DNA from: Thiomicrorhabdus sp. Milos-T2
GTDB lineage: Bacteria; Pseudomonadota; Gammaproteobacteria; Thiomicrospirales; Thiomicrospiraceae
Direction of reading: 5' to 3'
Assembly (NCBI RefSeq): GCF_000702325.1
Contig: NZ_KL370892.1
Span: forward strand, 62,001-126,000
DNA length: 64,000 bases
The notes beneath the pieces are model-generated. The model was not told the origin of the DNA and searched no databases. It saw only the letters and a list, made by a program, of their open reading frames with translations. Shown here one piece after another: positions 3,765-62,295 of this stretch. Numbering within the stretch: the stretch's first letter is position 1; the number at the start of each line of letters is the position of its first letter. Made by a program: the position numbers and the translations under genes.

Positions 3765-4445
3765 CTCGGCAATCCATGAACACACACCGTCATTCTCAGG
3801 TTTGAACAACTACGTCATCCTCGGGCTTGACCCGGGGATCTTCCAAAGGCAAAGCCAAGAATCAAGCTCAAACCCTGGATTACCACGCTGCGCTCGTAAT
3901 GACAAAACCCAAAAACCTTCGTGTCTTCGTGATCAATCAATCCCGTCATCCTCGGTCTGAGCAACGCCGTCATCCTCGGGCTTGACCCGGGGATCTTTCA
4001 AAGGCAAAACACAGATTATCCAGTCAAGCTGAATAATGATGTAATGAAACAGATTACCCAATCAAGTCGGGTAATGACGAACCACTAGACCGTCATTGCG
4101 AGGAGCAAAGCGACGTGGCAATCTCATTTGGCAAAGTGCTTAGCCTTGGAAGATTCTTCGCTGCGTTCAGAATGACAGAACTATTTTGCAATCTTGCGTT
4201 ACCCATGTCATCCTGAGCAAAGCGAAGGATCTCCCAATGGCACGATAAAAACCTAATGACTAAAAAATGGAAGCTGCCAGGCCTGGTAAGTTCGCAATCA
4301 GCAAAGCTAAGCATCAAACTCAAACCCTGGATTACCACGCTTCGCTCGTAATGACAAACCCAAAAACCTTCGTGACTTCGTGTCTTCGTGGTTAACCCAT
4401 AACAAAAACCCAAAAACAACATAACTTCATAACTTCATAACTTCA
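3765..4445. repeat. Long mosaic of dispersed hairpin repeats
   Basis: No gene is supported from 3658 to 4564. The stretch contains GTCATCCTCGGG...CCCGGGGATCT copies near 3813 and 3968, GTAATGAC-ended copies near 3875 and 4330, ATTACCCAATC-type copies near 4020-4075, a GTCATTGCGAGG...GTGGCAATCT copy near 4092, a GATTCTTCGC...CAGAATGAC copy near 4150, a CATCCTGAGCAAAGC-type copy near 4208 and CTTCGTGACTTCGTG copies near 4370. A perfect CCAGGCCTGG lies at 4277-4286. The long open frame on the minus strand here is repeat-derived. Confidence 0.8.
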
Positions 4446-4493
4446 TGGTTCATCCATTCAAAACCAAACACATTAGCAATCACTTAAATTTAT

Positions 4494-4535
4494 TTACGTA
4501 TATTTATTTACCTTGTGATAAATATTCGCTAAGAT
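4494..4535 (+). promoter_or_regulatory. Candidate ugd promoter with 18-bp activator-like motif
   Basis: The 18-mer TTACGTATATTTATTTAC (4494-4511) ends in a possible -35 hexamer TTTACC (4507-4512), followed after 17 bp by TAAGAT (4530-4535) as a -10. The ATG lies 29 bp downstream. The 18-mer matches the consensus TTACGTATNNTNATTTAC also found upstream of glmS and wcaJ. A regulator binding just upstream of and over the -35 is inferred. Confidence 0.55.
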
Positions 4536-4564
4536 AAACAAAATTTATCTATAAAGGTGTATAC

Positions 4565-5803
4565 ATGAAAATCGCAGTGGCTGGAACCGGTTATGTTGGC
4601 TTATCACTTGCTATGCTTATGGCACAAAACCATGAAGTGGTGGCGTTAGATATTATTCCTGAAAAAATTGATTTACTTAACAACAAAAAATCACCGATTG
4701 TTGACAATGAAATCACCCACTTTCTAGAAAACAAAACCCTCAACTTTACCGCAACCTTAGACAAAGACCAGGCCTACCAAAATGCCGATTTTGTCGTCAT
4801 TGCCACGCCAACAGATTACGATACAGAAACAAACACCTTTAATACACGTTCAGTAGAAGCCGTTATTAATGACGTAATCGCAATAAACCCCAACACAACC
4901 ATGATTATTAAAAGCACCATCCCTGTTGGATACACTGAAGCGTTAAAAAAACAATTAAAAAGTCAAAATCCCGCATTAAACATTAAACTATTCTTCTCAC
5001 CAGAATTTTTAAGAGAAGGTAAAGCGCTTTACGACAACCTCTACCCATCACGCATTATTGTGGGAGAACAATCTCAACAAGCCAAAACCTTTGCAGGCCT
5101 GTTAGTAGAAGGCGCAGAAAAGCCAGAACAAGACATTCCCGTTCTATTTACCGACAACACCGAAGCAGAAGCCGTTAAACTATTTTCAAACACCTACCTA
5201 GCCATGCGAGTTTCCTACTTTAACGAACTAGACACCTACTGCGAATCTCACGGATTAAGTGCAAAACAAGTCATAGAAGGCGTAGGCTTAGACCCTCGCA
5301 TTGGTGATCACTACAACAACCCAAGCTTTGGTTACGGAGGTTACTGCCTACCCAAAGACACCAAACAACTACTTGCCAATTATCAAGATGTACCCAACAA
5401 CATCATCAAAGCAATCGTAGACTCAAACACCACCCGTAAAGACTTTATTGCCAGTCAAGTCATTAAAAAATTGACTGCTGGCAGTCATCCTGAGCAAAGC
5501 GAAGGATCTCCTAATAGCAAAGTCGGCATCTACCGCCTAGTCATGAAACAAGGCTCAGACAACTTTAGAGCCAGTGCAATACAAGGCATAATGAAACGCA
5601 TAAAAGCCAAAGGGATTGAAGTCGTAATCTACGAACCCGTATTAACCGAAGAAGGCAAAACCGAATTCTTTCACTCAAAAGTTATCAGTGATCTCAATGA
5701 GTTTAAACAACAAAGCAACGTAATCATCGCCAATCGTATGATTGATGATTTACAAGATGTAGCAGATAAAGTCTACACCCGTGATTTATTTGGGAATGAT
5801 TAA
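4565..5803 (+). CDS. ugd: UDP-glucose 6-dehydrogenase
   Basis: The protein (412 residues) oxidises UDP-glucose to UDP-glucuronate with two NAD+, supplying the acidic sugar of the polysaccharide. The N-terminal Rossmann loop GTGYVGLS (residues 7-14) binds NAD; the catalytic cysteine is Cys261 in [13 protein letters not shown]; the C-terminal domain ends in the family-typical [10 protein letters not shown]. It is the short Ugd type, as in E. coli. Residues about 303-318, between the helix FIASQVIKK and the strand KVGIYRL, contain an extra segment including [10 protein letters not shown]; this is translated from a dispersed hairpin repeat inserted in frame (5484-5509). Homologues I know go directly from one element to the other. 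All catalytic parts are intact, so activity is plausible. Confidence 0.95.
5484..5509. repeat. In-frame repeat copy inside ugd
   Basis: This 26-bp copy of the GTCATCCTGAGC...GAAGGATCT repeat, also seen near 4208, lies inside ugd and is read as part of the protein without breaking the frame. Confidence 0.8.
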
Positions 5804-5907
5804 AAATTTTGAATAATAAATTTACCCTGTGCTCACAATGCAGAAATAGCCACAGGGAATGCCAGGCCTGGTAAAAGAAACACCAAACAGAAAAAAGCCA
5901 AAACTAG

Positions 5908-15130: not shown

Positions 15131-15481
15131 ATGAAATACTTTTACTTTATAAATTTGGAATACAAAATGAAAATCGGCATATTAACTTTTCACTTTAATA
15201 AAAACTTTAGAATTGTGGTACCCGATGCTTTAGCGTTAGGCACCCGTGTTTTAATATCCGACAAGGTCAACATAGCGCGTGAAATTGAACAAATGCAAGC
15301 AAGCCTGGTAGAAAGTGATACTTTAGAAGGTACACAAAATCTTATCCAGGCCTGGTAAGATTTATCAGCTGAATAAAAACAAACCATTAAACAAAACACC
15401 ACTCCATGCTATGGGCAAAAATTTGATATTGCACAAGCTGCTAAAAATCTTATTAGCTTAATTCGAGAAGATACAAAATGA
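15131..15481 (+). pseudogene. Degenerate glycosyltransferase remnant
   Basis: Only ends of genes remain. The start MKIGILTFHF (from 15167) resembles the beginning of polysaccharide pyruvyl transferases. It is joined directly to a GT4 C-terminus (PDALALGTRVLISDKVNI, then QASLVESDTLEG). The same frame runs on past TAA at 15356-15358 and a second TAA 15 bases later into QKFDIAQAAKNLISLIRED, the usual GT4 tail, and reaches TGA overlapping the ATG at 15478. So this is a chimera with an internal deletion and two in-frame stops. The first stop directly follows a CCAGGCCTGG palindrome (15346-15355). Confidence 0.75.
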
Positions 15482-16993: not shown

Positions 16994-17036
16994 GGGCCGC
17001 AAATTGCGACCAGTTGCTTTACTCATGGCTTCAATC

Positions 17037-19500: not shown

Positions 19501-19506
19501 TGTCTA

Positions 19507-25938: not shown

Positions 25939-26415
25939 TTGTTAAGTTTAGATATATTTAAGCAAATAGTTGAAAACGCACCCCTATTTGCCATCGATTT
26001 GGTTGTAGTAAATAATCAAAACCAAATTCTGGTTGGTGAGCGTTTAAATGCACCTGCTAAAGGCAGTTGGTTTGTACCAGGTGGCCGTGTTTATAAAAAT
26101 GAATCTTTAGAGGATGCCTTTAAACGTATTTCTAAAGCGGAATTGGGGCTAGAAATAGAAAGACACCACGCCTGGTTATTAAGTTTGTATGACCATTTTT
26201 ATGATGATAGTTTTTTCAGCACTGAAACATCAACGCACTATATCAATGCAACTCATGTAATTAAGCTTTCAAGCGAACAACTTAGCTTGCCGCAAGAGCA
26301 ACACAGCCATTACCAATGGATTTCAATTGATGATTTACAACAAAACAACGACGTTCACAAATACAGTAAAATATTTTTAACCGAATTAAAGAGATGGATG
26401 AAAAACCATGATTAA
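25939..26415 (+). CDS. gmm: GDP-mannose mannosyl hydrolase (Nudix-like)
   Basis: This 158-residue protein (TTG start) follows the WcaH/GDPMH pattern: PLFAIDLVVVN, GSWFVPGGRVYKNESLEDAF, a Nudix helix with the GDPMH-specific changes (no canonical REUXEE), AELGLEIE, and DHFYDDSFF near the ligand loop. It hydrolyses GDP-mannose or GDP-fucose to GDP and free sugar, regulating precursor pools. It overlaps manC by eight bases, the usual wcaH-manC order of colanic-acid loci. Confidence 0.88.
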   Translation: MLSLDIFKQIVENAPLFAIDLVVVNNQNQILVGERLNAPAKGSWFVPGGRVYKNESLEDAFKRISKAELGLEIERHHAWLLSLYDHFYDDSFFSTETSTHYINATHVIKLSSEQLSLPQEQHSHYQWISIDDLQQNNDVHKYSKIFLTELKRWMKNHD

Positions 26416-27868
26416 CCTTATTTTATGCGGCGGTTCTGGAACACGCCTTTGGCCTTTGAGCCGCACAATGTTGCCAAAGCAATTTGTGCGTTTGTTTAAT
26501 AATCGTTCTCTGTTTCAAGATACGGTGTTAAGAAACCAACCGGTTTGTTCTAGTATGTTTGTGGTGTCTAATAACGAGCAGTTCTTTTTGGCAGTGGATC
26601 AGTTAGACCAAATATCAGGGAGTGAGATCCCCGGGTCAAGCTCGAGGATGACGTGTGATTTTAGTCGTTCACAATTTTTATTAGAACCCGTTGGCCGAAA
26701 TACCGCGCCGGCTATTGCCTTAGCTTGTATGGCATTGGATGCTGATGATTTAGTGTTAGTGACAACCTCTGACCATTTAGTTAAAGATCAAGCGGCTTAT
26801 GAAACCGCTGTGTTAGAAGCGAAAAAATTAGCTGAAGAAGATAATCTCGTCACCTTCGGGATTAAACCTACTTACCCTGAAGTGGGCTTTGGGTATATTG
26901 AAGCGAATGGTAATGATGTTTCTTCTTTTAAAGAAAAACCCGATGCGGATACGGCTCAATCGTATATTGATCAAGGAAACTATTACTGGAACTCCGGTAT
27001 GTTTTGTTTTAAAGCCGGGGTGTTTTTAGATGAACTTAAACAATACGCGCCAGAAATGTACCAGGCCTGCTTAAATGCCGTGCCAAAAAACCATCGTCAT
27101 TGCGAGGAGCAAAGCGACGAAGTAATCCATGCTTCTGAAATTCGTATTGATCTGGATGCCATGAACGCCATTCCAGAAGACAGTATTGATTATGCGGTAA
27201 TGGAACAATCACAAAAAGTAAAAGTGGTGCCTTGTGATATGGGTTGGTCTGACTTGGGGAGTTTTGATGCTTTGTATGATGAAGTAAAACAACCAGGCCT
27301 GGGTAATGCCGTTTTATCGCGCTTAGATGATTCACCTGAACCGATTTGCATTGATTCTAAAGACAACTTGATTGTGGCACGTGAACGCCAAATAGCTTTA
27401 GTGGATGTGGAAGATTTATTGGTAGTGGATACTTCTGATGCCATTTTAATTTCTAAAAAAGGTAGCTCACAAAAAGTTAAAGCCGTTGTTGCTCAAATCA
27501 AAAAACAGGCTCCAGAATTATCGGATATTCACCGCTTGGCATTCCGCCCTTGGGGTTCTTATGAAGTGTTAGTAAATACCGAAGGTTATAAAGTTAAACG
27601 CATTATTGTGAAGCCTGGCGGTCGTTTATCACTGCAAAAGCATTTTCACCGTAATGAACATTGGATTGTGGTGTCTGGAACAGCCACGGTAACCGTTGAT
27701 GATCACCGTTGCTTGGTTAGACCCAATGAATCAACCTATATCAAAATGGGACAAACCCACCGCTTAGAAAACGAAGGTAAAATTGATTTGGTCATGGTAG
27801 AAGTCCAAGTAGGTGAATACACCGGCGAAGACGATATTGTAAGAATTGAAGATGTTTATGGGAGATAG
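26408..27868 (+). CDS. manC: Mannose-1-phosphate guanylyltransferase / mannose-6-phosphate isomerase
   Basis: This 486-residue bifunctional type II enzyme makes GDP-mannose. The nucleotidyltransferase signature GGSGTRLWPLSR is at residues 6-17, EPVGRNTAPAIALA follows, and the C-terminal cupin PMI domain begins at RPWGSYEVLVN with KPGGRLSLQKHFHRNEHW. Two segments absent from homologues I know are translated from dispersed repeats: GSEIPGSSSRMT around residues 72-83 (26625-26654) and HRHCEEQSDEVIH around 229-241 (27096-27128). Both preserve frame and lie between, not within, catalytic motifs. It also contains one exact and one near-exact CCAGGCCTGG. Activity is plausible but untested. Confidence 0.94.
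   Translation: MINLILCGGSGTRLWPLSRTMLPKQFVRLFNNRSLFQDTVLRNQPVCSSMFVVSNNEQFFLAVDQLDQISGSEIPGSSSRMTCDFSRSQFLLEPVGRNTAPAIALACMALDADDLVLVTTSDHLVKDQAAYETAVLEAKKLAEEDNLVTFGIKPTYPEVGFGYIEANGNDVSSFKEKPDADTAQSYIDQGNYYWNSGMFCFKAGVFLDELKQYAPEMYQACLNAVPKNHRHCEEQSDEVIHASEIRIDLDAMNAIPEDSIDYAVMEQSQKVKVVPCDMGWSDLGSFDALYDEVKQPGLGNAVLSRLDDSPEPICIDSKDNLIVARERQIALVDVEDLLVVDTSDAILISKKGSSQKVKAVVAQIKKQAPELSDIHRLAFRPWGSYEVLVNTEGYKVKRIIVKPGGRLSLQKHFHRNEHWIVVSGTATVTVDDHRCLVRPNESTYIKMGQTHRLENEGKIDLVMVEVQVGEYTGEDDIVRIEDVYGR
26625..26654. repeat. In-frame repeat copy 1 inside manC
   Basis: A copy of the AGATCCCCGGG...GAGGATGAC repeat, the reverse orientation of the CCTCGGGCTTGA family common in the gaps, lies inside manC without breaking the frame. 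Confidence 0.85.
27096..27128. repeat. In-frame repeat copy 2 inside manC
   Basis: A copy of the GTCATTGCGAGG...GTAATCC repeat lies inside manC and is read as H-C-E-E-Q-S-D-E-V-I. It belongs to a different arm family from copy 1. Confidence 0.85.
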
Positions 27869-32485: not shown

Positions 32486-32567
32486 AGATCCCAGGGTCAA
32501 GCCCGAGGATGACGAAAAGAGATTGTCATTACCTAACTCGATTAGTGAACGAAACAGCCAGGCCTGG
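32486..32567. repeat. Repeat copy and iterated palindrome
   Basis: One ATCCCAGGGTCAAGCCCGAG copy near 32487 and an exact CCAGGCCTGG at 32558-32567 lie between yoeB and the second galE. Confidence 0.75.
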
Positions 32568-32671: not shown

Positions 32672-33670
32672 ATGAAAGTTTTAGTGGTAGGTGGTGCGGG
32701 TTATATTGGCTCTCACATGGTTAAAATGCTGGCTAATTCTGGCCATGAAGTGATTGTATTAGACAATCTATCTACAGGGTTTAGAGATTCTGTTAAATAT
32801 GGCAAGCTTGTCATTGGTGATTTGGCCGATATTCACTTATTAGAAAACCTTTTTATTGAACATCAATTTGATGGCGTAATGCACTTTGCCGCTAATAGTT
32901 TGGTGGGTGAGTCTATGACTCTGCCAGCGAAATATTATCGTAATAATGTTGCTAATACATTAAACCTGCTTGATGTAATGGTTCGCCATGATGTGAAACA
33001 TTTTATTTTCTCTTCGACTGCTGCTACTTTTGGTGAACCTGAGTATTCACCCATTGATGAAAAACATCCTCAAAACCCCATTAACCCTTATGGTTCAAGT
33101 AAATTGATGGTGGAACGTGTTTTAAAAGACTATGCAGATGCTTATGGTTTAAATTCGGTTTGTTTACGTTATTTTAATGCATGTGGAGCTGACCCAGAAG
33201 GTGAAATAGGTGAACTCCACGACCCTGAAACGCATTTGATTCCACTCATTTTACAAGCGGCTTCTGGACGCAGAAAATCCATTACTGTTTTTGGACGCGA
33301 TTATGCGACTGAAGATGGAACCTGTATTCGAGATTACATTCACATTAATGACTTATGTTCAGCTCATGCCTTAGCATTAGACTTAATTTTATCTGGAAAG
33401 CAATCCGGCGCTTTAGCTTATAACTTGGGTAATGGAACAGGTTTTTCTGTGCAGCAAGTGATTGATGCCGTCATTAAGGTGGTGGCTGAAGATGGTTATT
33501 CTTTAAAGGTAGAAGATGGTGAGCGCCGACCTGGCGACCCAGCTGTATTAGTCGCCGATGCCACCCAAGCCAAAGCCGTTTTAAACTGGCAACCCAAGTT
33601 TGCCGATTTAGAAACCATTATTCGCCACGCCTGGTCTTGGGAGAAAAAGGTATTTAACAGAAAAACGTAA
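32672..33670 (+). CDS. galE: UDP-glucose 4-epimerase (copy 2)
   Basis: The protein (332 residues) is a GalE of the shorter type: VGGAGYIGSHMVKML, SSTAATFGEPEYSPIDE and Y-G-S-S-K in NPYGSSKLM, with the RRPGDPAVLVADATQAK end typical of exo-oligosaccharide-linked epimerases (ExoB-like). ATG at 32672 is chosen because AAGGA lies right before the other ATG at 32666. It is a paralogue of the gene at 7.9 kb, so substrate roles may be divided (UDP-Glc/Gal versus another pair). Confidence 0.93.
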   Translation: MKVLVVGGAGYIGSHMVKMLANSGHEVIVLDNLSTGFRDSVKYGKLVIGDLADIHLLENLFIEHQFDGVMHFAANSLVGESMTLPAKYYRNNVANTLNLLDVMVRHDVKHFIFSSTAATFGEPEYSPIDEKHPQNPINPYGSSKLMVERVLKDYADAYGLNSVCLRYFNACGADPEGEIGELHDPETHLIPLILQAASGRRKSITVFGRDYATEDGTCIRDYIHINDLCSAHALALDLILSGKQSGALAYNLGNGTGFSVQQVIDAVIKVVAEDGYSLKVEDGERRPGDPAVLVADATQAKAVLNWQPKFADLETIIRHAWSWEKKVFNRKT

Positions 33671-36164: not shown

Positions 36165-36303
36165 TAAATTGCTTTTATTCAATCGTGAAAGTCATTGCCT
36201 AAGAAATACAACGCTATCATCAGGCTTGATTTAATAACCTTTAACGTGTCTAAGTTATACTTTTGTTGTTAGCTCGTGTTAAGGTTCTTTAAAAAGCACT
36301 ATT

Positions 36304-36831: not shown

Positions 36832-36876
36832 TAACAGTCCTTTGTACCCAAACCAATCGGACATGACACAACAAAC

Positions 36877-38509: not shown

Positions 38510-39889
38510 TCAAGCTCTTAATCTCTTATTTTTATGACTATTTGCCAGTACGGCTATGGCGCAAACAATGACAAACGTCATGGCATTTGCAGGAATTTGT
38601 AGATTAAAGTCTGAAGCGGAGTGGATGATAATGGCAATAATCGCCATAGCGGCTCCAAAACCGACACCACTTCGATAGGCGGATTGTTTGTTTTTTAAGG
38701 CTCTAAAGGCTTGATAAAGCGCAAATAATGCAAAGATTAGTAGCGGTAAAGCGCCAATAATTCCGTACTCTACCCAAAATTGAATGTAGTCATTATGAGC
38801 CTTATCAAAATGGCCACCAAAATTAGGGCCGGCGTAAGCCATAAAGACCACTTCAAAACTGCCTGCACCATGCCCTATCAAGGGTTTTTCTTGAGCCAAA
38901 GGTATTGAGTTAGTAAACGCTAACCCCCGCAGATCATTAATATCAAATACCAACTTTCCATCTTCTTGCGAAATGCTCACCTCTGTATTAATAATACGAT
39001 CTTTTAAACGTTCTAATCCAAAATACTGGCTGATAACAATCATATCAATAATAATAAAACTCGCCAGCAATAAACTATTACGTAAACGGTGTTCTTTAGT
39101 AATCAAAACAAAGATAGAGCCTACAATTAATAAGCTACTAAAAAAGCCCGCATTCCCCATACGTGATTGAGTCATCACCAAACCAATAACCATAATCACA
39201 ATAGCTAAACGAATTTTGGTTTTTGGTCCCAAAAGCAATTCAATAATATTACGCCAGCGAAACGCTTTACCATCTCTTAAGGCCAACATTAACCCTATGC
39301 CCAAACCAATGGTCATTTCTAAATAACCGGCTAAATGGTTACGGTTTACGAATGTACCGGTAGCTTTACCAAGATAATACTCTTTAGGCACACCAAACAA
39401 CCACTCTACCCCCGAAAGCACCATTGAAGCACCCCAAAATGCCTGAAATGCTCCACTCACTAAAAATACACTGAGCAATAAGGTAAGACGTTTACGAGTA
39501 TTAAATAGACTTAAAATCATTACAAACATTAAGGTGTATGCAATACCTAGCATTAAATACTGAAAGCTGGCGGCTGGATTATCTGACCAACCGATTAACC
39601 ATTGAGCAGCCACCCAGACTTGGGTAGAAGAGAGCAAAACTAACATTACCAGGCCTGGTTGATTCAATCTTTGGTTGGCATTGCGATCTGATTGCGATTG
39701 ACGCAATAAATTAACACCCCGAAGTAAGGCTAATATGGCAATGAGTAAGATAAGTAAGGCGGCAGACCAATCTCGGTTACTGCCTAAAGGTAGAGGAGCC
39801 CAAAATATAACGGCTAATAAACCCGCTACAATAAAACGCTCTAAACGTGATTTTTCTTCTTGTTCAAAACTTTGCATAAACAGGCTCAC
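38510..39889 (-). CDS. O-antigen ligase/polymerase family membrane protein
   Basis: This 459-residue protein has about eleven hydrophobic segments and a Wzy_C/WaaL-type region: GTFVNRNHLAGYLEMTIGLG, then VMTQSRMGNAGFFSSLLIVG, and a periplasmic loop with LIGHGAGSFEVVF and KAHNDYIQFWVEYGIIGALP. The R-N-H-L-A-G and H-N-D/Y motifs are those of the O-antigen ligase superfamily. It faces opposite to the polysaccharide genes and marks the end of the locus. A role as ligase or second polymerase cannot be decided. It contains one exact CCAGGCCTGG. Confidence 0.82.
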   Translation of the reverse strand: MSLFMQSFEQEEKSRLERFIVAGLLAVIFWAPLPLGSNRDWSAALLILLIAILALLRGVNLLRQSQSDRNANQRLNQPGLVMLVLLSSTQVWVAAQWLIGWSDNPAASFQYLMLGIAYTLMFVMILSLFNTRKRLTLLLSVFLVSGAFQAFWGASMVLSGVEWLFGVPKEYYLGKATGTFVNRNHLAGYLEMTIGLGIGLMLALRDGKAFRWRNIIELLLGPKTKIRLAIVIMVIGLVMTQSRMGNAGFFSSLLIVGSIFVLITKEHRLRNSLLLASFIIIDMIVISQYFGLERLKDRIINTEVSISQEDGKLVFDINDLRGLAFTNSIPLAQEKPLIGHGAGSFEVVFMAYAGPNFGGHFDKAHNDYIQFWVEYGIIGALPLLIFALFALYQAFRALKNKQSAYRSGVGFGAAMAIIAIIIHSASDFNLQIPANAMTFVIVCAIAVLANSHKNKRLRA

Positions 39890-42091: not shown

Positions 42092-42904
42092 ATGCGATTT
42101 TATGAAACGTTGCTAAACGGAAAATTTGTACCGGTCACGCTAGAAGGTAAAAATTCTCGTGAACGTTTTACAGACTGGGCATTGTTAGAAAAACCTTTAG
42201 TCTCTTCTCCCATTAGTGGTGGGCTTAAAGCTGCACAAGAAAGACTCGCCGCACTAGACTTTGTTGCTTACAAAAAAACACGTAATAACCTAGATGGTGC
42301 AGTCAGTGGCTTGTCTCCATACATTGAACACGGGCTAATTCAAGCCGATGAAGTTCTGAAATTTATTGATACCAATAATGCTCGCATTGAGGCTTATCAT
42401 TTTTTACAGCAACTAAGCTGGAGAGCCTTTTATGAACAAAAGTATCTTGAAGACCCAACATTAGTTTGGAAAGATGCCGACCACTATAAAACCGGGTTTA
42501 AAGCAGAAGATTATGCGGATGAATTACCCCAAGATATTCAAAAAGCACAAACCCCTGTCGCCGTCATTAATCAATTTATTGAAGAATTGTATAACACAGG
42601 TTACTTACACAATCATGCTCGCTTATATTTAGCCGCTTATATTGTGCATTGGCGCCGAATTAAATGGCAAGCTGGAGCTAAATGGATGTTAAGCCACCTA
42701 ATGGATGGCAATTTAGCGTCTAACAATTATTCTTGGCAGTGGGTGGCCAGTACGGCCAGTAGCAAACCTTATATTTTTAATTTGGACAATGTTATTCAGT
42801 TTGCTAATAACAAATATAAAACAGCCAGGCCTGAGAACATTGAAATTGATAAATCTTATGAAGTGTTAACAAAACAGCTATTTCCCAATTTGGAGGGCAT
42901 TTAA
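42092..42904 (+). CDS. Photolyase-like FAD-binding domain protein (split)
   Basis: This 270-residue protein corresponds to the C-terminal FAD-binding domain of photolyases/cryptochromes without the N-terminal antenna domain. Visible are SGLSPYIEHGLIQADEVLKF, the QLSWRAFYEQKYLE segment, NTGYLHNHARLYLAAYIVHW and HLMDGNLASNNYSWQWVAST, all equivalents of photolyase FAD-contact motifs. The next gene, two bases away, encodes an N-domain-like protein, so the pair looks like a split photolyase with domain order reversed. Substrate (DNA lesion or signalling) is unknown. Confidence 0.85.
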   Translation: MRFYETLLNGKFVPVTLEGKNSRERFTDWALLEKPLVSSPISGGLKAAQERLAALDFVAYKKTRNNLDGAVSGLSPYIEHGLIQADEVLKFIDTNNARIEAYHFLQQLSWRAFYEQKYLEDPTLVWKDADHYKTGFKAEDYADELPQDIQKAQTPVAVINQFIEELYNTGYLHNHARLYLAAYIVHWRRIKWQAGAKWMLSHLMDGNLASNNYSWQWVASTASSKPYIFNLDNVIQFANNKYKTARPENIEIDKSYEVLTKQLFPNLEGI

Positions 42905-43365: not shown

Positions 43366-43387
43366 AACTTACCAGGCCTGGTAAGTT
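43366..43387. repeat. 22-bp perfect palindrome built on CCAGGCCTGG
   Basis: The iterated core at 43372-43381 is extended by six further bases on each side (AACTTA and TAAGTT) into a perfect 22-bp palindrome. It lies between convergent genes, just before a terminator. Confidence 0.8.
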
Positions 43388-46390: not shown

Positions 46391-47382
46391 GAAGAGCCTC
46401 CTAATAAAGAGTGGCTGAGCGAAGGTTTAATTGCAACTGTAGCGTCATTAACTAAGTGCTCTTTAAGCAAACGATAAAACGTTTTAGATTGCTCTATCCA
46501 TGGAAAGTGCCCACACTGATCAATTAAGTCAACCTGTTGAAACTGCATTTTGTTTTGCATCGCATTAAGGTTATAAGGCATTAAATAATCTTGGTTACAA
46601 TCAATAAAACTCACCGGTTGTTTAAACTGGTTAATGGTTTTGAATTTAATAGGATTTTGATCGTACTCTTTCCAGGCCTGAATATTTAAATCAATATTAA
46701 AGTCTTTAACGGTAAATTGCTTGGCATATTTAACCCCTAAGTTATAATCCATAAAATAGGTTGGCAACACTTGCTGAATTTGTCTCAAGGTTAAATGTTC
46801 TAAATCTTGATTTTGCTCGCCAATCTCATTTGACCAGGCCTGGTCACTATCCCAATCAACATTCACATTTTCTTGGTTTCGTAGATGAATCTCATCCGTT
46901 AAGTTTTGCATGGCGGCTTTTTCTGGATCTACCGGGTTAAGCAAGATAATTTTAGCGACTTTGTTATTATGAGATTGCGCATAAAGCATCGCCATAAGGG
47001 CTCCCCAAGAATGCCCAACTAAAATAACTTTTTCACCCGCATTTAACTGATGCGTTAATAAGGTATCAAGTTGCTCTACCCAAGCATTTAGAACGGGTTG
47101 CGGGTTTAGGTGTCTATTTTCTCCGATACCTAGCATATCAGCTAAAAAAACTCGATAGTCCATTGCGGCGATTTTGGTTTGGATAGGTTCTAAATTCCAG
47201 CTTGAAAACCCAGGACCACCCCCAAGTAACAAAACTTTAGGCGCATCAATTTCACCCTTAACATGATAACTAAATTTTTGCTGCTGCCAATTAGCAGACA
47301 AAGGAGGGGTTGTAAAACTTGCTTGAACGTTAAGAACAAGAAATAAAAGACTGCCAAGAACAATGGCTTTTAAAAAAGACAT
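46387..47382 (-). CDS. Alpha/beta hydrolase, proline iminopeptidase-like
   Basis: This 331-residue protein has a signal-like N-terminus (FLKAIVLGSLLFLVLNVQA), the oxyanion-hole segment LLGGGPGFSSWNLEP and the nucleophile elbow GHSWGALMA; a late GHFPWIEQ supplies the His. It resembles proline iminopeptidases/epoxide-hydrolase-like proteins. It starts an operon with pdxH, and the TGTATA-N5-TGTAAA motif lies upstream. A hairpin with 8-bp arms (AATTAAGC/GCTTAATT, 47451-47473) sits in its leader. Substrate is unknown. Confidence 0.85.
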   Translation of the reverse strand: MSFLKAIVLGSLLFLVLNVQASFTTPPLSANWQQQKFSYHVKGEIDAPKVLLLGGGPGFSSWNLEPIQTKIAAMDYRVFLADMLGIGENRHLNPQPVLNAWVEQLDTLLTHQLNAGEKVILVGHSWGALMAMLYAQSHNNKVAKIILLNPVDPEKAAMQNLTDEIHLRNQENVNVDWDSDQAWSNEIGEQNQDLEHLTLRQIQQVLPTYFMDYNLGVKYAKQFTVKDFNIDLNIQAWKEYDQNPIKFKTINQFKQPVSFIDCNQDYLMPYNLNAMQNKMQFQQVDLIDQCGHFPWIEQSKTFYRLLKEHLVNDATVAIKPSLSHSLLGGSS

Positions 47383-48217: not shown

Positions 48218-48783
48218 TTCTCCCCCTCAATCCAGTCACTACGCTTAATGCCTAAACTTTCAGCGGTTTGGTAATATTCATTACACTTAACCAGGCCTGG
48301 TTGCTTGGTTCTGGATAGAATCCAAGCATAATCGGTATTTGGGCCAATCACCAATGCCATTTGATAATCAGGATCTAATTTTGCAATATGATAGCCTCCA
48401 TAAAACGGCCCAAAAAATGAGACTTTTAAACTACCTATATTTTTAGCACCAATAAAGTAAGCTTTACCCTCTGCAATTTTAGGTTGATTATTTTCAGTGT
48501 TAATCCCTGAGTTAATAACTCTAACCCCACCGTCTTCACGCATAGAATAGTCAGCCGTAACTTGAGTTAATCCCCGTTCAAAACTATGGTCTAAACGTGC
48601 AATTTCATACCATTTACCTAAATAACGCTCTAACTCAAAATTTTGAATGGGTGTCACCCCTTTAGGCACTTGCGTACAGCCTGTTAACAAAGCCGGGACA
48701 CCCACAATCATCAAACTGAAAGTGAATCGTTTAAATACATTAAACACTCTGTTCTGAATAGGATTGGGTTTAACCTGATTCAT
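48208..48783 (-). CDS. blc: Outer-membrane lipocalin
   Basis: This protein of about 191 residues carries the lipocalin signature FELERYLGKWYEIARLDHSFERG, GLTQVTADYSMR, the conserved T-D-Y-A-W-I-L-S-R-T motif and a lipobox (GVPALLTGCTQ). The start at 48783 is placed by AGAGG upstream; an upstream ATG at 48828 has no such site. Blc binds lysophospholipid or other hydrophobic ligands in the outer membrane. Lipocalins are commonly part of photolyase/cfa gene sets. One exact CCAGGCCTGG lies in the gene. Confidence 0.92.
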   Translation of the reverse strand: MNQVKPNPIQNRVFNVFKRFTFSLMIVGVPALLTGCTQVPKGVTPIQNFELERYLGKWYEIARLDHSFERGLTQVTADYSMREDGGVRVINSGINTENNQPKIAEGKAYFIGAKNIGSLKVSFFGPFYGGYHIAKLDPDYQMALVIGPNTDYAWILSRTKQPGLVKCNEYYQTAESLGIKRSDWIEGEKCK

Positions 48784-48900
48784 AAAACCTCTTTTTGCTA
48801 TGGTTATCAAAGAAATTATCTCTTTCAAGTAATTATCACTTTCTAATTATCACTATCTTATCCCCGTCGATGGAATCGATTTAAATCAAACCAAACCAAA

Positions 48901-49149: not shown

Positions 49150-49197
49150 AGGATTTACCAGGCCTGGTGATTTTGTAAAATCAATGCCTGAGCTTCA

Positions 49198-53447: not shown

Positions 53448-54926
53448 TTAACTTGCTGTTTTCATTGCTGCGACACGTTCTAAATGTTCTGTTCTACTCT
53501 GTTTTAAATCCACCTGCGGTTTTGGATAATCTTGACCTAGCTGTATTGCTTTTAAACTACATTCAGCAAGATGTTCCCAAGGAGCATGAATTGCCTTGTT
53601 AGATAGCGCTTTTAACTCAGGTACCCATTTGCGAATGTATTCACCCTTAGCATCAAACTTTACACTTTGAGTGACCGGATTAAACAATCGGTAATACGGT
53701 GAGGCATCAACACCACAACCTGCTACCCACTGCCAACCCATTGAATTATTAGCTGGATCGGCATCGAATAGGGTTTTATCAAACCAAGCCTTACCCAGTA
53801 ACCAATGCTGATTTAGGTTTTTGGTTAAAAACGAAGCAACCAACATTCGCACGCGGTTGTGCATGCTGCCTGTTTCATAAAGCTCTCTCATTCCAGCATC
53901 AATAATTGGAATCCCCGTTAAGCCTTTCTGCCAGGCCTGGTAACTTGGCAAGTCTTGTTGCCAAGACATGGTTTTGTATTTGATTTGAAATGGCTCAGTT
54001 TCAGTTTGCGGAAAATGCACCAGTAAATGTCGCGCAAACTCCTTCCAGATTAACTGCCTTATCCATGGCATGCCTTGATCGGTTTTAATCTCACCTTGTG
54101 CCATCAAATCTTGAAAGTAAAAATAGATGACTCTTGAGTTTATCTCACCAAAATGCAGATACGGCGACAAGCCACTGGTGCCCTCTAAAATCGGAAAATC
54201 ACGATCATGATCATAATGTGCGAGTCCGTTTTTAATAAAGGTTTTTAACTTATCCCAAGCGGCTTTTTCTCCAACTTGCCAATGCGTCATTAGCTTTTTA
54301 GCCCAAGGCTCTTGAATAAGGGTTTGTAAGTCTTTTGGCAAATTTAACCAGGCCTGGTTGGTTGGCGTTAATTGCGCACATTGACTAAAATCTTTGCCAA
54401 GACTTAAATCTTCTTGCAAAGGTTCAATTAAATTTTGCTTAGCCAGTAAAGCTTTGTAAAAAGGCGTAAACACTAAATACGGTTTATGCTGTTGATTACG
54501 AATCAATTCTGGTGCTATTAAAAACTCTGAATAAAACGGCTGCAGAGCAATTTTGCATTGCTGACAAACTTGTAAAGCTTGTTGCTGCATCTCAACAAAA
54601 GGCGACCCCACTTGGTAACTGTATAAAACCTGATTTACCTTGTAATCTGAAATGACTTGCTTAAGTTGTTGCTCAAACGCACCGTCTATAATCCACAATT
54701 GACCGCCCTTGGCTGAAATCTCAGCTTGCAGTTTTTGTAAACTTTGTGCCAACCAAACAAGATTAGCTTCACCAATGACCTGTTTTGAATCATGAAAATA
54801 AGCCACAATGACCAGGCCTGGTGATTCCAATGCCGTTTGTAAAGCAGGCAAAGCAGTGAGTCTTAATTCTCTTTGCAACCAAACTAAGCTTACGTTTTGG
54901 TGATGCTTTATTGACGTTAATGCCAT
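53448..54926 (-). CDS. phrB: Deoxyribodipyrimidine photolyase
   Basis: This 492-residue CPD photolyase repairs cyclobutane pyrimidine dimers using FADH- and light. The antenna domain begins VSLVWLQRELRLTALPALQT; the FAD domain shows SGLSPYLHFGEINSRVIY, WIRQLIWKEFARHLLVHFP, TGIPIIDAGMRELYETGSMH, NRVRMLVASFLTKNLNQHW and ADPANNSMGWQWVAGCGVDA. It contains three exact CCAGGCCTGG palindromes. It is the last gene of the operon starting at 59.6 kb, or close to it. Confidence 0.95.
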   Translation of the reverse strand: MALTSIKHHQNVSLVWLQRELRLTALPALQTALESPGLVIVAYFHDSKQVIGEANLVWLAQSLQKLQAEISAKGGQLWIIDGAFEQQLKQVISDYKVNQVLYSYQVGSPFVEMQQQALQVCQQCKIALQPFYSEFLIAPELIRNQQHKPYLVFTPFYKALLAKQNLIEPLQEDLSLGKDFSQCAQLTPTNQAWLNLPKDLQTLIQEPWAKKLMTHWQVGEKAAWDKLKTFIKNGLAHYDHDRDFPILEGTSGLSPYLHFGEINSRVIYFYFQDLMAQGEIKTDQGMPWIRQLIWKEFARHLLVHFPQTETEPFQIKYKTMSWQQDLPSYQAWQKGLTGIPIIDAGMRELYETGSMHNRVRMLVASFLTKNLNQHWLLGKAWFDKTLFDADPANNSMGWQWVAGCGVDASPYYRLFNPVTQSVKFDAKGEYIRKWVPELKALSNKAIHAPWEHLAECSLKAIQLGQDYPKPQVDLKQSRTEHLERVAAMKTAS

Positions 54927-56080: not shown

Positions 56081-57313
56081 CTAAATTTGCTCTAACTTTG
56101 AAAACGTTAACTGCACAACACTTGTGTTCTGGGTTTCAAAACCTACGGTGCAGTAGTCTAAATAGTAGTTCCACATTTTTTGGAATGACTTGCCATAACC
56201 CTGCTCTAATAATACTTGGCTATGTTTATTAAAATCCTGTTTCCATAACTGGCAAGTTTTGGCGTAATCTTGTCCAAAATCAAAGACATTTTCAACTCTA
56301 AAGCCGTGTTTTGCAGCTAAATGCTTTAACTGCCTTAAACTTGGTAATAATCCACCCGGAAAAATATAAGTCTGAATAAAGTCCACATTAGATTGATAGT
56401 GTTCGGCAATTTTTTCATCAATAGTAATAACTTGTAATGCAGCTTTGCCGTCTGGTTTTAAGCACTCATTCAGTTTTTCAAAATACACATTCCAATACTC
56501 TTTGCCGACCGCTTCAAACATTTCAATACTTACAATATGATCGTACTGCTGAGTTTCATGTCGATAATCTTGCAGAGCAACTTCATAATGAGCGGTATTT
56601 GGAATTGCCTCCAAACGATTTTGTGCAAACTTTTGCTGTTCGGTTGACAAGGTCAGACCTTTAACGTTGGCTCCTTGGCGAGTAGCGGCTTCCATAAACC
56701 CTCCCCAACCGCAACCAATTTCAAGTACTGTTTGACCAGCCTTTAAGTTGATTTGATTAATTAACCTTTGATACTTTTGATCTTGAGCTTGCTCTAAACT
56801 CATATTAGCATCACTAAAAATAGCACTTGAGTAAGACATGGTTTTATCTAGCCATTTTTCATAAAACGCATTGCCTAAATCGTAGTGATAGGAGATATTC
56901 TTGCGGCTATTTTTTACCGAATTATGACGTTTACGGTGTTGCCATAAATGCCATAAATTAAAACTCTTTTTCCCCAATAAACCTTCTAAAACGGCTTTAT
57001 TTTGGTAAACCAAATTCATTAGGTTATATAAAGAAATTGTTTCAACCGCATCTTCAAAATAGGCTTGAGCAAATCCTAGCTCACCTTGTGTTTTCATTAA
57101 CCAGTAAGCTCTAAAGGGATTATTTAAAATCAGTTCGGCATGCGGACCAGCCTTTGATCCTTGAAAACGATGAGTTTCGCCAAACAACTTCAACGTTAAG
57201 CTTCCCTGCTCTAATTTATTAAATGGCAAGTTAAGAATCATTTTTTGAACAAAAGAAGGTGTAACCATCTTTTCTAATAGAGTAAATCCGCTATTTGATA
57301 TGGCTTTTAACAT
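56081..57313 (-). CDS. Cyclopropane-fatty-acyl-phospholipid synthase family methyltransferase
   Basis: This 410-residue SAM-dependent enzyme acts on membrane phospholipid acyl chains. The SAM-binding motif VLEIGCGWGGFMEAATRQGA, the YHYDLGNAFYEKWLDKTMSYS active-site segment and FIQTYIFPGGLLPSLRQL are those of the CFA synthase family. In this gene context (FAD oxidoreductase, DUF1365, DUF3833) the homologue in Rhodobacter (UfaM-type) methylates fatty acids on the way to furan fatty acids, so that role is as likely as cyclopropanation. Confidence 0.92.
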   Translation of the reverse strand: MLKAISNSGFTLLEKMVTPSFVQKMILNLPFNKLEQGSLTLKLFGETHRFQGSKAGPHAELILNNPFRAYWLMKTQGELGFAQAYFEDAVETISLYNLMNLVYQNKAVLEGLLGKKSFNLWHLWQHRKRHNSVKNSRKNISYHYDLGNAFYEKWLDKTMSYSSAIFSDANMSLEQAQDQKYQRLINQINLKAGQTVLEIGCGWGGFMEAATRQGANVKGLTLSTEQQKFAQNRLEAIPNTAHYEVALQDYRHETQQYDHIVSIEMFEAVGKEYWNVYFEKLNECLKPDGKAALQVITIDEKIAEHYQSNVDFIQTYIFPGGLLPSLRQLKHLAAKHGFRVENVFDFGQDYAKTCQLWKQDFNKHSQVLLEQGYGKSFQKMWNYYLDYCTVGFETQNTSVVQLTFSKLEQI

Positions 57314-58092
57314 TGGTTCATCTCCGTGTGACTGTAGTCAATTTTTTCGAGCTGTTTCGGGGTTTTGTGAAATTTACCACCTTTTAACCAAATTTTAAGT
57401 GCCCACCAATGAATCATGGCGAGAACTTTAAGGGTATTAAAAGGATGTTTAAAGGCGGCTTTAATTAGGTTTTTATCACTTAAAGATTGTGCTTGACCCA
57501 CTTGAGTAGAGATAAGCACTTGTTGATTATTTTCGGTTTGATAAATTCCAATTTTGTATTGTTCAGAAGGCTTACTAAAACGAAACTGATACTGGCAATC
57601 CATGCCAATAAAAGGGGAAACATGAAACACTTTTTTAGCCTGAGCTTTAACACTATCAGCCAAAGGTTGACCGTGGTTGGTTAAGACGTAATGATGCCAT
57701 TGACCAAAGGTGTTACTCACCTCGCCAATAATGCCAATCATTTGCCCTTGTTGATTGTAGGCGTACCACATAGCCAAAGGATTAAACGTGACATTCATAA
57801 AACGGGGAAAACAAACCAATTCAATCTTATGAGCCGCTTCAGGCAAGCCATATTCTGCTAATAACTTATCCGCCCAAACCCGCCAGGCCTGGTTAGTTTT
57901 ACGAGCGCCGTAATCTTTAAAGTGCAAACTAAACAAGTTAAAACGATTGAGCGATAACCACTTAAGCGCACTGGCCTCTGCTTCAATCTCATCAATATCA
58001 ACACGCAAGCTCATCACTCCATAACGAAACTGATATTGCATCGGAAAAAATCGTTGATGCATCACTTGGCCTAAATAGATTTGACTAGGCAT
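57307..58092 (-). CDS. DUF1365 domain-containing protein
   Basis: This 261-residue protein is a DUF1365 member: YLGQVMHQRFFPMQYQFRYG at the start, PRFMNVTFNPLAMWYAYNQQ, FHVSPFIGMDCQYQFRFSKP and a C-terminal HPFNTLKVLAMIHWWALKIW. It is almost always encoded between a FAD-dependent oxidoreductase and a CFA-type enzyme, as here with overlaps on both sides, so it acts in the same lipid pathway. Biochemistry is unknown. Confidence 0.93.
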   Translation of the reverse strand: MPSQIYLGQVMHQRFFPMQYQFRYGVMSLRVDIDEIEAEASALKWLSLNRFNLFSLHFKDYGARKTNQAWRVWADKLLAEYGLPEAAHKIELVCFPRFMNVTFNPLAMWYAYNQQGQMIGIIGEVSNTFGQWHHYVLTNHGQPLADSVKAQAKKVFHVSPFIGMDCQYQFRFSKPSEQYKIGIYQTENNQQVLISTQVGQAQSLSDKNLIKAAFKHPFNTLKVLAMIHWWALKIWLKGGKFHKTPKQLEKIDYSHTEMNQC

Positions 58093-59648: not shown

Positions 59649-59673
59649 ATAAATTCAAAAGGTGAGAGTTATT

Positions 59674-60480
59674 ATGAAAAGTGATACAGAAACTTTACAA
59701 AATGAAAAGTCACAACGAATTTGGGTGGTAGGCGCTTCAGAAGGCATTGGCTTGGAACTGGTAAAGCAACTCCTTACAGAAGAGCACCAATTAGTGGTCT
59801 CTGCACGAAATGCAGAAACCCATACAAACTTACTCGATTTACAAATAAAGCACCCTGACAAGCTCGCCTTATTAAATTGCGATGTCACCCAAAAACAGAA
59901 TTTAAAAGAGATAACTGACCAGGCCTGGTCAGTTTTTAAGGGGTTAGATAGCTGGATATATAATGCCGGTGTCTATAAACCCATGAGGCTAAAAGAATGG
60001 GATATTGAAGCCTTTGAAAGCATGAACCAAGTTAATTATTTAGGTGCGGTGTATTTAATGAATCACCTTTTACCTCTCTTTATGTCAGAAGCAACATCCC
60101 ATAAAAAACCAATTTGGTTATGGAATATTAGCCTAGCCTCTGATTTTGGCTTACCTTATGGTGGAGGTTATTCAGCACCCAAAGCCGCCTTACAAAACTT
60201 AGCCGAGGCATTACAACCCGAGTTACAACAATCGGGCATTGAATTAAAAGTGATTAATCATGGTTTTGTAAAAACGCGTTTAACCGCCAAAAATGATTTT
60301 ACGATGCTTGGGTTAATGGCTCCTAAAGAGGCGGCGATAAAAATTCATCAAGCACTTAAAAACCATCGTTTTGAAACACGTTTTCCCTTTAATTTATCGT
60401 TAGTTTTGGCTACGCTAAAACGGCTACCAAAATCCTGGGCATTAGCCATAACTAAAAAGGCGTTAAAAGATGACGGATAA
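59674..60480 (+). CDS. SDR family oxidoreductase
   Basis: This protein of about 268 residues is a classical short-chain dehydrogenase: WVVGASEGIGLELVKQLL (cofactor loop), D-V-T after beta-4, IYNAGVY, and the catalytic Ser and Y-x-x-x-K in LASDFGLPYGGGYSAPKAAL. The start at 59674 is chosen for the preceding AGGTGAG. It overlaps the NTF2-like gene by 11 bases. Substrate unknown, though the context suggests a lipid. Confidence 0.88.
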   Translation: MKSDTETLQNEKSQRIWVVGASEGIGLELVKQLLTEEHQLVVSARNAETHTNLLDLQIKHPDKLALLNCDVTQKQNLKEITDQAWSVFKGLDSWIYNAGVYKPMRLKEWDIEAFESMNQVNYLGAVYLMNHLLPLFMSEATSHKKPIWLWNISLASDFGLPYGGGYSAPKAALQNLAEALQPELQQSGIELKVINHGFVKTRLTAKNDFTMLGLMAPKEAAIKIHQALKNHRFETRFPFNLSLVLATLKRLPKSWALAITKKALKDDG

Positions 60481-60898
60481 CCCAAATTTAAGTGCTTATA
60501 TTCAAGCCTATCAAAACCTTACACCCAAAAACCTGCCTGAACTCGGTGAGCTTTTAAGCGAACAGGTGTTTTTTAAAGACCCTTTTAATAAGGTTAAAGG
60601 TAAAGCGGCCACCTTAGCGATTTTTGAACATATGTTTGCCACCACACAAAGACCTCAGTTTAAAGTGATCAATGCCGCCATGCACCAAGACATTGGACTC
60701 CTCTATTGGCACTTTGATTTTGTCATGCCCTCTAACCAAAGCCAACAATCGATTCAAGGCATGAGTCGAGTTCGGTTTGATAAAAATGGGTTAGTCACTG
60801 AACATATCGATCACTGGGATGCTGGCGAACAGGTTTACAGCAAAGTGCCAATACTGGGTTGGTTAATTAAACAAGTGCAAAAAAGATTGTCGGCATGA
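60470..60898 (+). CDS. NTF2-like (SnoaL-type) protein
   Basis: This 142-residue protein has the nuclear transport factor 2 fold: SAYIQAYQNLTPKNLPELGE, FKDPFNKVKGKAATLAIFEH, and GMSRVRFDKNGLVTEHIDHW as the last strand. Such proteins are small ligand-binding or isomerase-type enzymes. It is co-transcribed with the SDR gene and nearly always sits in this type of cluster. Confidence 0.85.
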   Translation: MTDNPNLSAYIQAYQNLTPKNLPELGELLSEQVFFKDPFNKVKGKAATLAIFEHMFATTQRPQFKVINAAMHQDIGLLYWHFDFVMPSNQSQQSIQGMSRVRFDKNGLVTEHIDHWDAGEQVYSKVPILGWLIKQVQKRLSA

Positions 60899-60962
60899 TA
60901 AATTTTAGGCAAAAAATTCTAGTCAATAAATCATAACCCCTAAAACGCAGACTCTAAAAGCT

Positions 60963-62225
60963 ATGACCTCACAACCCATTTCAAAAGTCGTGTTAATTCG
61001 TTATGGTTGGTTAGGCTTTGCCTTAGCTATGCTGGGTATACCTCTGTATGTTTATCTACCCACTTATTACGCACAACAAAGTGCCTTAAGTTATTCCGCC
61101 GTAGGTGCAGCGCTATTATTAGCGCGTTCTTTAGATGTGATCACAGACCCATTAATTGGTTGGTGGAGTGACCGCTTACAAGCTAAAATTTCTCGTAGTT
61201 GGCAAATCGCTTTATCTAGCCTGGTGTTGGCCATTGGCGTATATCAACTTTGGTTACCAGACTTAAATACCTTAGGTATGGGCTATTTGTTTATTTGGAG
61301 TTTTATTACCTACCTTGCCTGGACATGGATGAGTATTCCCTACTTAGCTTTAGCGGCAGAAATCAGTCAAAACCACCATACCAAAACGCAACTCTCTGGT
61401 TCACGCGAAGGTTTTGCCATTGTAGGGGTCATTACGGTGTTATTGCTCCCCCTTTTAAGTGGCTTAAGCGCCCAAAGTTTCGACTTTTATAGCCTTTTAT
61501 TTATTCTGTTTTTAATCGTGCTATTTAGCGGCAGTCTTTGGCTTATTAATATTCCCACTCTACCCATCCAGAACAGCCAACCTATTGCACCCTGGATAAT
61601 TTTAAAAAACCTTAAACAAAATCATCCCCGCAGTTTTAGCATTATGCCTAGCTATTTTTTAAACAATTTAGCCAATTCACTTCCAGCCACTCTATTTTTA
61701 ATCTTTGTTTCAGACTATTTACAATTAGAGAGTCAAACGGGACTGTTTTTAATAACCTACTTTTTAGCAGGCCTGGTCGCTTTGCCGTTATGGATAAAAC
61801 TGGCTAAACGCATAGGTAAACAAACAACCTGGAAAATCTCTATGCTACTCGCAAGTGTCAGTTTTATTGGGGTATTTGGTTTACAGCCTGGAAACAGTAT
61901 CGGGTTTTTAATCGTAAGTATTCTCACCGGATTTAGCTTAGGCATAGACGTAGCTATGCCAGCGTCTATTCAGAGCGATATTACTCAAGAAGTTACTCAA
62001 AAAGACACCCAAGCAACAGGACTGTTATTTGGATTATGGGGCATGCTCACCAAATTAGCCCTTGCCTTAGCCGTTGGGCTGGCTTTTCCCATATTAGATT
62101 GGAGTGAAAGTATAGAACAACAAAGCACCGCTTTACTTTGGCTATATGCTGGATTGCCAATTCTGCTAAAACTGATGGCTTGGAAATTACTACCTCCTCA
62201 AAAATCGAATGAAAAATCAATTTAA
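60963..62225 (+). CDS. MFS transporter (MelB/GPH-like)
   Basis: This 420-residue protein has twelve membrane helices and the GPH-type signature ARSLDVITDPLIGWWSDRLQ, with a second half-repeat around LAGLVALPLWIKLAKRIGKQ. Members of this branch in photolyase-linked clusters have no assigned substrate; export of a lipid or small molecule is possible. It follows the SDR-NTF2 pair. Confidence 0.88.
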   Translation: MTSQPISKVVLIRYGWLGFALAMLGIPLYVYLPTYYAQQSALSYSAVGAALLLARSLDVITDPLIGWWSDRLQAKISRSWQIALSSLVLAIGVYQLWLPDLNTLGMGYLFIWSFITYLAWTWMSIPYLALAAEISQNHHTKTQLSGSREGFAIVGVITVLLLPLLSGLSAQSFDFYSLLFILFLIVLFSGSLWLINIPTLPIQNSQPIAPWIILKNLKQNHPRSFSIMPSYFLNNLANSLPATLFLIFVSDYLQLESQTGLFLITYFLAGLVALPLWIKLAKRIGKQTTWKISMLLASVSFIGVFGLQPGNSIGFLIVSILTGFSLGIDVAMPASIQSDITQEVTQKDTQATGLLFGLWGMLTKLALALAVGLAFPILDWSESIEQQSTALLWLYAGLPILLKLMAWKLLPPQKSNEKSI

Positions 62226-62295
62226 GAAGTCACCAGGCCTGGTAGTTTGTTGAAATAACTTTGTTAATGAGGCATTCTATTTTAAGTTATTTGCC

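Follow-up and report, generated by a model that had tools for sequence, protein, structure and literature searches.

To our knowledge, self-specific DNA uptake directed by a short genomic signal has been established in two bacterial families only, both of them mostly host-associated: the Neisseriaceae with their DNA uptake sequence (DUS) and the Pasteurellaceae with their uptake signal sequence (USS). Both signals occur at a density of about 1 per kb (PMC1626085), and the Pasteurellaceae uptake receptor is described as only predicted (PMC12616744). Highly over-represented words are also found in cyanobacteria, where they are tied to matching methyltransferases (Elhai, PMC4390886). The present analysis concerns a 64,000-nucleotide stretch of Thiomicrorhabdus sp. 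Milos-T2 (hereafter the window; contig NZ_KL370892.1, C2:62001-126000 in our numbering) and the 10-bp palindrome CCAGGCCTGG within it, in which a first-pass annotation of the window had seen a highly iterated palindrome of the kind of cyanobacterial HIP1 or an uptake/methylation signal. The palindrome is a genome-wide tag with conserved flanks, lineage dialects, biased placement and sites conserved among the orthologs of one gene, and it is probably the core of a DNA uptake signal (DUS/USS-like) of this sulfur-oxidising gammaproteobacterial family.

Abundance, shape and placement of the palindrome

The window contained 16 exact copies of CCAGGCCTGG spanning 4277-62242, which reproduces the first-pass count, and seven one-mismatch copies where at least five had been reported; five of the seven retain the inner 8-mer CAGGCCTG and the other two do not. 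Dinucleotide composition predicts 0.021 exact copies, in agreement with the earlier hand estimate of about 0.02, while shuffling of the window yielded 0.66 matches at one mismatch or fewer, with the observed 23 attained in none of 100 shuffles. CCAGGCCTGG was also the top over-represented palindromic 10-mer in the window. Over the whole genome (G000; two contigs, 2,655,367 bases) 612 copies were counted, and none of the reversed word used as control, and the copies therefore do not represent one duplicated segment. A 364-kb sample that includes the window held 84 copies versus 0.16 expected under a second-order Markov model, an excess of about 500-fold, at the whole-genome density of 0.23 per kb. 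The two outcomes which the annotation had set against its own claim, counts near expectation and confinement to one recently duplicated segment, were thus not observed.

The conserved element extends beyond this core. Base preferences reach about 7 bp past the 10-mer and are then near background, giving a 24-bp palindrome, AAANYWA-CCAGGCCTGG-TWRNTTT, in which an A/T tract lies on either side, roughly one helical turn off centre. Read outward on both sides, the flanks were T (.87), W, R (.88), N, T (.59), T (.54) and T (.45) (n=167 half-sites), a signal visible within open reading frames (ORFs) and stronger outside them. Among single-mismatch neighbours in the 364-kb sample the outer position was tolerant (23 observed vs 1.0 expected), and the inner four positions of each half were nearly fixed (9 mismatched observed vs 3.6 expected). 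Perfect and single-mismatch copies stood at 84:32, a ratio of 2.6; for the Neisseria DUS the ratio is about 2.4 in aligned regions (PMC2397512).

Under a simple ORF model (at least 80 aa), which assigns 85% of the sample as coding, 44 of the 84 copies lay within ORFs and 40 in the 15% outside, a roughly 5-fold higher density there. The copies within ORFs were read as P-G-L(V/G/A/D) in 27 cases, as X-Q-A-W in 14 and as T-R-P-G in three; the two frames reported earlier (Q-A-W and P-G-L/V) were both recovered, along with a rare third. That copies occur in genes as well as gaps and are not explained by protein selection, as the annotation had argued, is borne out by this division and by the shifting sites in the photolyase gene described below. 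Density per kb differed with the type of gap: convergent gaps had 1.14 copies, tandem ones 0.74 and divergent ones 0.34. Of the 40 copies, 25 of those outside ORFs were found at most 84 bp from a gene 3' end, with 13 at most 84 bp from a gene start.

Two long stretches, both picked because they are motif-free, were inspected for gene content. The longest gap measures 36 kb (P ~0.035 for such a maximum) and begins with a transposase gene, the rest being mostly a cluster of RNA polymerase, elongation-factor and ribosomal-protein genes; rpoB, rpoC, EF-G, EF-Tu, L2 and the transposase were confirmed by Pfam, and the other gene names are presumed from sequence. The second gap measures 22.6 kb, of which 20 kb (L144, G000:C1:404001-424000) were read and contained 0 copies at a GC content of 0.32. 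This low-GC stretch, which is likely a genomic island, starts with a few housekeeping-like ORFs, after which come an integrase of the phage type (PF00589) and some 16 kb with other genes. It also encodes DUF927 and DUF4344 proteins.

Within the window, 11 of the 16 copies fall in the right-hand 25 kb and five in the left-hand 38 kb, where the sugar-nucleotide and polysaccharide genes are located. Copies outside ORFs lie at 5862..5871 (59 bp downstream of an ORF ending at 5803), 15346..15355 (in the gap between an ORF end at 14981 and an ORF start at 15478), 32558..32567 (upstream of ORF 32666-33670), 43372..43381 (26 bp downstream of an ORF end at 43346), 49158..49167 (about 30 bp downstream of the ferrochelatase gene, 49198-50301, minus strand) and 62233..62242 (between two convergent ORFs, right after an ORF end at 62225). 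The frame is P-G-L-G at 27293..27302 (ORF 26408-27868), P-G-L-V at 39649..39658 (ORF 38510-39889) and 48291..48300 (ORF 48208-48828), and Q-A-W at 46834..46843 (ORF 46387-47382), 57883..57892 (ORF 57307-58092) and 59919..59928 (ORF 59662-60480). The copy at 4277..4286 is read as T-R-P-G within a 109-aa ORF (4093-4422) that is possibly no gene. One-mismatch copies, all given for the plus strand, depart at an outer position at 1773..1782 (ACAGGCCTGG, adjoining a dispersed-repeat copy that starts at 1763), 27061..27070 (CCAGGCCTGC), 42825..42834 and 46672..46681 (both CCAGGCCTGA) and 61767..61776 (GCAGGCCTGG); two copies of CCACGCCTGG, at 26166..26175 and 33625..33634, depart at an inner position and may be chance.

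Other repeated sequences and genes were noted alongside. Longer dispersed repeats occupy 22025-22520, 24407-24800, 28210-28585, 31484-31728, 33809-36958 and other parts of the window, and their 12-mers CGTCATTACCCG (12 on the plus strand, 1 on the minus strand), GTTCAGAATGAC (12) and GACGTGGCAATC (11) are almost all one-stranded and bear no relation to the palindrome. In the own-genome sample (L041-L055 and the window) the words AAAGGTCTC/GACCTTTGC and ATAGCTAGC were over-represented at about 50-60 copies per 364 kb and are probably a repeat element; the AAAGGTCTC/GACCTTTGC word was found in G021 too. Pfam assigned two Fic ORFs, a RhuM-Fic ORF, an ORF6N ORF and two AAA_14 ATPase ORFs in the left part of the window (20-1333, 3025-3657, 17004-17903, 19462-20448, 28752-29963 and 30379-31482). 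These six are possibly mobile or defence genes and are partly interspersed with the sugar-nucleotide genes.

Dialects and orthologous sites in the family

Relatives were examined as the first-pass annotation had proposed. Among 62 genomes of the presumed family (Thiomicrorhabdus, Hydrogenovibrio and kin) counts of CCAGGCCTGG were bimodal with few intermediates, and the inner 8-mer CAGGCCTG reached 236-1173 copies in 32 genomes (hereafter core-rich); the remaining 30 had no more than 74. When 370 genomes with a completeness of 90% or more were drawn from the whole class, none of the 365 outside the family held more than 46 copies of CCAGGCCTGG; the signal is family-specific. Four loci from Thiomicrorhabdus/Thiotrichales relatives, obtained by a CbbR search (68 kb, two of them from T. 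marina), contained neither CCAGGCCTGG nor CAGGCCTG, and no dispersed motif was prominent in samples of 20-80 kb from G030, G050, G042, G025 and G017. The top words of G031 and G051, judged from k-mer lists, look like clustered or longer repeats: a AAACCTCTTATAA-type word had about 15 copies in 40 kb of G051 (L031-L032), with no further copies after the sample was doubled, and the word GACCTACTAGG was repeated in G031 (L029-L030). No description of the motif in this group, and no report of preferential uptake by its members, was found in the open-access literature (longer result lists covered in part, subscription papers mostly outside), in keeping with the annotation, which knew of none. Papers matching the 10-mer itself, among the matches listed, concern by their titles human or animal genes, DNA physics and oligonucleotide chemistry. 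Of two motif surveys, the excerpted part of PMC5217627 gave no match for Thiomicrospira or GGCC, and the passages covered of PMC1939737 did not mention the motif.

Four dialects were distinguished in the family, CCAGGCCTGG, ACAGGCCTGT, ACCGGCCGGT and AAAATCTRCCAGGYTGGG. Flanking of the core of the ACAGGCCTGT/GCAGGCCTGC kind was dominant in samples of G024 and G047, and G033, G041 and G046 were assigned to the ACAGGCCTGT type by counts, with many CAGGCCTG and few CCAGGCCTGG; G048 was mixed, with 234 CCAGGCCTGG of 655 CAGGCCTG. The CCGG dialect was found in G027, which held 0 copies of CCAGGCCTGG and 1217 of CCGGCCGG (the next-highest genome had 159, with a control of 148), and 17 of 19 CCGGCCGG sites sampled there were ACCGGCCGGT. 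In G007, G008 and G013 the signal was the non-palindromic AAAATCTRCCAGGYTGGG: samples of 80, 80 and 40 kb contained 9, 12 and 7 sites respectively, with an expectation of 0.08-0.16 for exact 10-mers. The left part of AAAATCTRCCAGGYTGGG is one half-site of the palindrome (AAANYWACCAGG), and each of the three samples contained one inverted AAAATCTRCCAGGYTGGG pair within 60 bp. The sampled dialects again show the outer T-tract, weakly or not at all in g6. When five motif states were placed on a photolyase gene tree of 30 rows, 7 changes were required versus 14.7 with shuffled labels, and the asymmetric dialect formed one supported clade. Members of genus g3 appear in two places on this tree, which is therefore unsafe as a species tree.

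The photolyase gene (window 53448-54926, minus strand; PF03441 and PF00875) carries three of the window copies, at 53931..53940 (Q-A-W, alignment column 418), 54348..54357 (Q-A-W, column 267) and 54812..54821 (P-G-L-V, column 85), and was the single gene compared across 30 family orthologs. These contain 33 copies of CAGGCCTG, 28 of them read CAG-GCC-TGG (Q-A-W). At column 418 the tryptophan is present in 30/30; the motif precedes it in 11 orthologs, two of them of the ACAG type, and 17 of the 19 motif-less orthologs have residues other than Q-A, so that the DNA word overrides the protein sequence. The positional shift for which the annotation had recommended looking was seen in this gene, where sites shift between lineages. 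At columns 304-306 the AAAATCTRCCAGGYTGGG-dialect motif of three genomes occupies the same three codons as CAGGCCTGG in G005, G010, G015 and G057, and when the gene was set against four near relatives at 69-72% nucleotide identity, the site was exactly kept in 9 of 12 cases, against a background of 4.4-5.9% of all 10-bp windows.

Candidate mechanism and competing explanations

We infer membership of the palindrome in the class of uptake signals from its dialects, its A-tract flanks and its bias to non-coding DNA and gene 3' ends, which make uptake the better fit among the possibilities raised by the annotation; the methylation part found no support among the enzyme families and sites searched. 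Cells undergoing natural transformation would preferentially pull in DNA bearing the signal through a receptor at their surface, most likely a type IV (minor) pilin, that binds the GC-rich core flanked by A/T tracts one helical turn away. Tagged fragments recombining into the chromosome would copy the tag into homologous sites, and the uptake bias could act as a molecular drive filling permissive sites (gene ends, variable codons) and leaving constrained genes and fresh islands empty. With kin using the same dialect, the tag would favour related DNA. With somewhat less assurance, we favour the view that chemolithoautotrophic sulfur bacteria carry a third bacterial uptake-signal family, independent of the DUS and the USS. 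Its main form would be a 24-bp palindrome, and within the family it would have moved between a palindrome with two half-sites and an asymmetric signal with one, at least one position being kept.

Of the transformation machinery, N_methyl pilins were found in 8/8 genomes searched and ComEC (PF03772) in 56/62, including the own genome and 31/32 of the core-rich ones. A number of observations weigh against an uptake signal. ComEC was also present in 25/30 of the other genomes, and machinery and motif therefore do not co-vary. The half-site alone is not enriched in the own genome (1 observed, ~2 expected). Copies are not evenly spaced (coefficient of variation 1.11, P of a value so large ~0.10, for the first 100 among the matches listed), and their density, 1 per 4.3 kb for the palindrome and 1 per 3.2 kb for the core, is below that of the DUS and USS. 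Absence from acquired DNA was checked in the single integrase-bearing stretch, itself selected as a gap. Three of the 33 photolyase copies of CAGGCCTG stand in genomes counted as motif-free (G042, G050, G051), and some Q-A-W copies therefore need no drive. The ComP_DUS domain (PF16732), a receptor feature peculiar to Neisseria, exceeded the cut-off in 0/62 family genomes. A profile of LPCPD pilins, built from a pilin cluster beside a miaB-like ORF in five of the genomes read, matched 61/62 genomes whatever their motif, some weakly, and the sole genome without a match, G048, is core-rich; no candidate receptor is therefore named. We also know of no palindromic DUS or USS, whereas the main dialect here is palindromic.

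Two leads towards a receptor were set aside: the Neisseria ComP domain, for which one sub-cutoff match was seen in the 62 genomes, in the motif-free G051, and pilin presence or absence as a correlate of the motif. The cluster near the miaB-like ORF (L177:5885-12866, L180, L181, L182, L184) comprises a GQELI-type pilin and large LPCPD-motif pilins (pilins by PF07963), along with what we take to be a response-regulator-like ORF and a second conserved ORF, their functions presumed from sequence. Among the genomes with no ComEC match, G050 is 99% complete and has 6 copies of CCAGGCCTGG and 39 of CAGGCCTG; the others (G019, G020, G035, G036, G043) are less complete or in at least 100 contigs.

A HIP1-like origin of the kind proposed for cyanobacteria, with the site or part of it marked by a solitary methyltransferase and enriched through selection or through mismatch repair directed by methylation, would account for a GC-rich palindrome that is replaced in relatives by other GC-rich palindromes, as are the alternate HIPs (PMC4390886), and for GGCC in three of the four dialects. 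We nevertheless consider it unlikely. Two methyltransferase families only were searched, PF00145 (E 1e-10) and PF01555 (E 1e-5). Neither was matched in 15/32 core-rich genomes (own included; two of the 15, G048 and G057, are <90% complete) or in G027 with its CCGG dialect, which makes for strong but not complete evidence against a HIP1-like origin. By inspection the four dialects share no 4-6 bp site, the asymmetric dialect being without GGCC and two dialects without CCWGG. Outside the motif GGCC is depleted (1088 vs 1566 expected on both strands), CCAGG shows no enrichment (364 vs 381 expected), and the signal runs on for 7 bp past the core in an A/T tract. Cytosine methylation of the Dcm/VSR or HaeIII type was rejected because PF00145 is unmatched in the own genome (no search was made for VSR itself), as were PF01555 methyltransferases, of which the own genome has none; the Dcm sites and AGGCCT core within the motif look incidental.

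A chromosome-organising or global DNA-binding protein, probably a dimer, could also read a 24-bp dyad whose A/T tracts lie about one helical turn off centre on both sides; its binding sites would be distributed chromosome-wide and kept by selection. In favour of this, ComEC and pilins do not track the motif. This explanation is rather improbable: the non-palindromic one-half-site form in some sister species ill suits an obligate dimer, and sites that override enzyme-gene residues, shift between lineages, concentrate outside ORFs near gene 3' ends and are missing from the ribosomal cluster speak against it, as does the dialect series, a trait of the two known uptake systems. The placement of copies could alternatively reflect transcription termination or another RNA-level function at gene ends, given the 40/84 sites outside ORFs, 25 of them near a 3' end, the gradient of density from convergent to divergent gaps, and the inverted pairs of the asymmetric dialect, which resemble terminators. 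A lone 10-bp palindrome has no loop and cannot fold into a terminator hairpin, however, and with 44/84 copies within ORFs such a function is very unlikely to explain the motif; the uptake signals that act in termination in Neisseria are paired ones (PMC2397512). That the palindrome is a mutational or compositional by-product or a relic of mobile elements is scarcely credible, since nothing was found for it beyond the shortness of the motif and the excess over Markov expectation is about 500-fold. The exact 14-bp form occurred in 36 IMG/VR stretches vs 62 for a shuffled palindrome control, and the fading of preferences about 7 bp beyond the core excludes a longer copied element. A mobile-element origin was rejected on the grounds that no sequence is shared beyond that distance and viral contigs are not enriched.

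Significance and comparison with known systems

The palindrome looks like a tag by which this marine sulfur bacterium and many related ones recognise and take up DNA of their own kind, with dialects by lineage. If this is true, it would constitute a third, environmental case with clear dialects, implying that the trait evolves repeatedly and outside hosts too, and would offer data from a separate source both for identifying receptors and for the old question of selection versus molecular drive. The switch between palindrome and asymmetric signal would allow receptor specificity and self-recognition to be traced through a change, and transformation of sulfur-oxidising autotrophs could be made practical by adding the right tag to DNA.

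With HIP1 and the alternate HIPs of cyanobacteria the palindrome shares high iteration, GC-richness and replacement palindromes in relatives (PMC4390886). It differs in that one dialect is non-palindromic and in that neither of the two methyltransferase families searched was found in 15/32 core-rich genomes, whereas the HIPs have a matching methyltransferase. The Neisseriaceae DUS likewise has lineage dialects and is not obvious in some genomes of its family (PMC3630211), is strongly conserved, forms inverted pairs that serve as terminators and is absent from recently acquired genes (PMC2397512), the last point resting here on one stretch. Its sequence is unrelated save for a CTG/CAG triplet, which is missing in the CCGG dialect and probably a coincidence. 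No ComP_DUS domain passed the cut-off here, and the Neisseria DUS, by the account cited, is without flanking motifs (PMC1626085).

The USS of the Pasteurellaceae (Hin AAGTGCGGT, Apl ACAAGCGGT) resembles the present signal in its short core of strong consensus, its hundreds of copies and the adjacent A/T-rich segments, and also in its family-wide subtypes, its preference for non-coding DNA despite being common in genes, and the occurrence of some inverted pairs (PMC1626085). In contrast to the USS, the main core here is palindromic with A/T tracts on both sides, its density is lower, several lineages of the family have no detectable motif, and the role in uptake is predicted from sequence. As far as the genomes allow this to be judged, most features of the known uptake signals appear to be present in the palindrome of Thiomicrorhabdus and its relatives.

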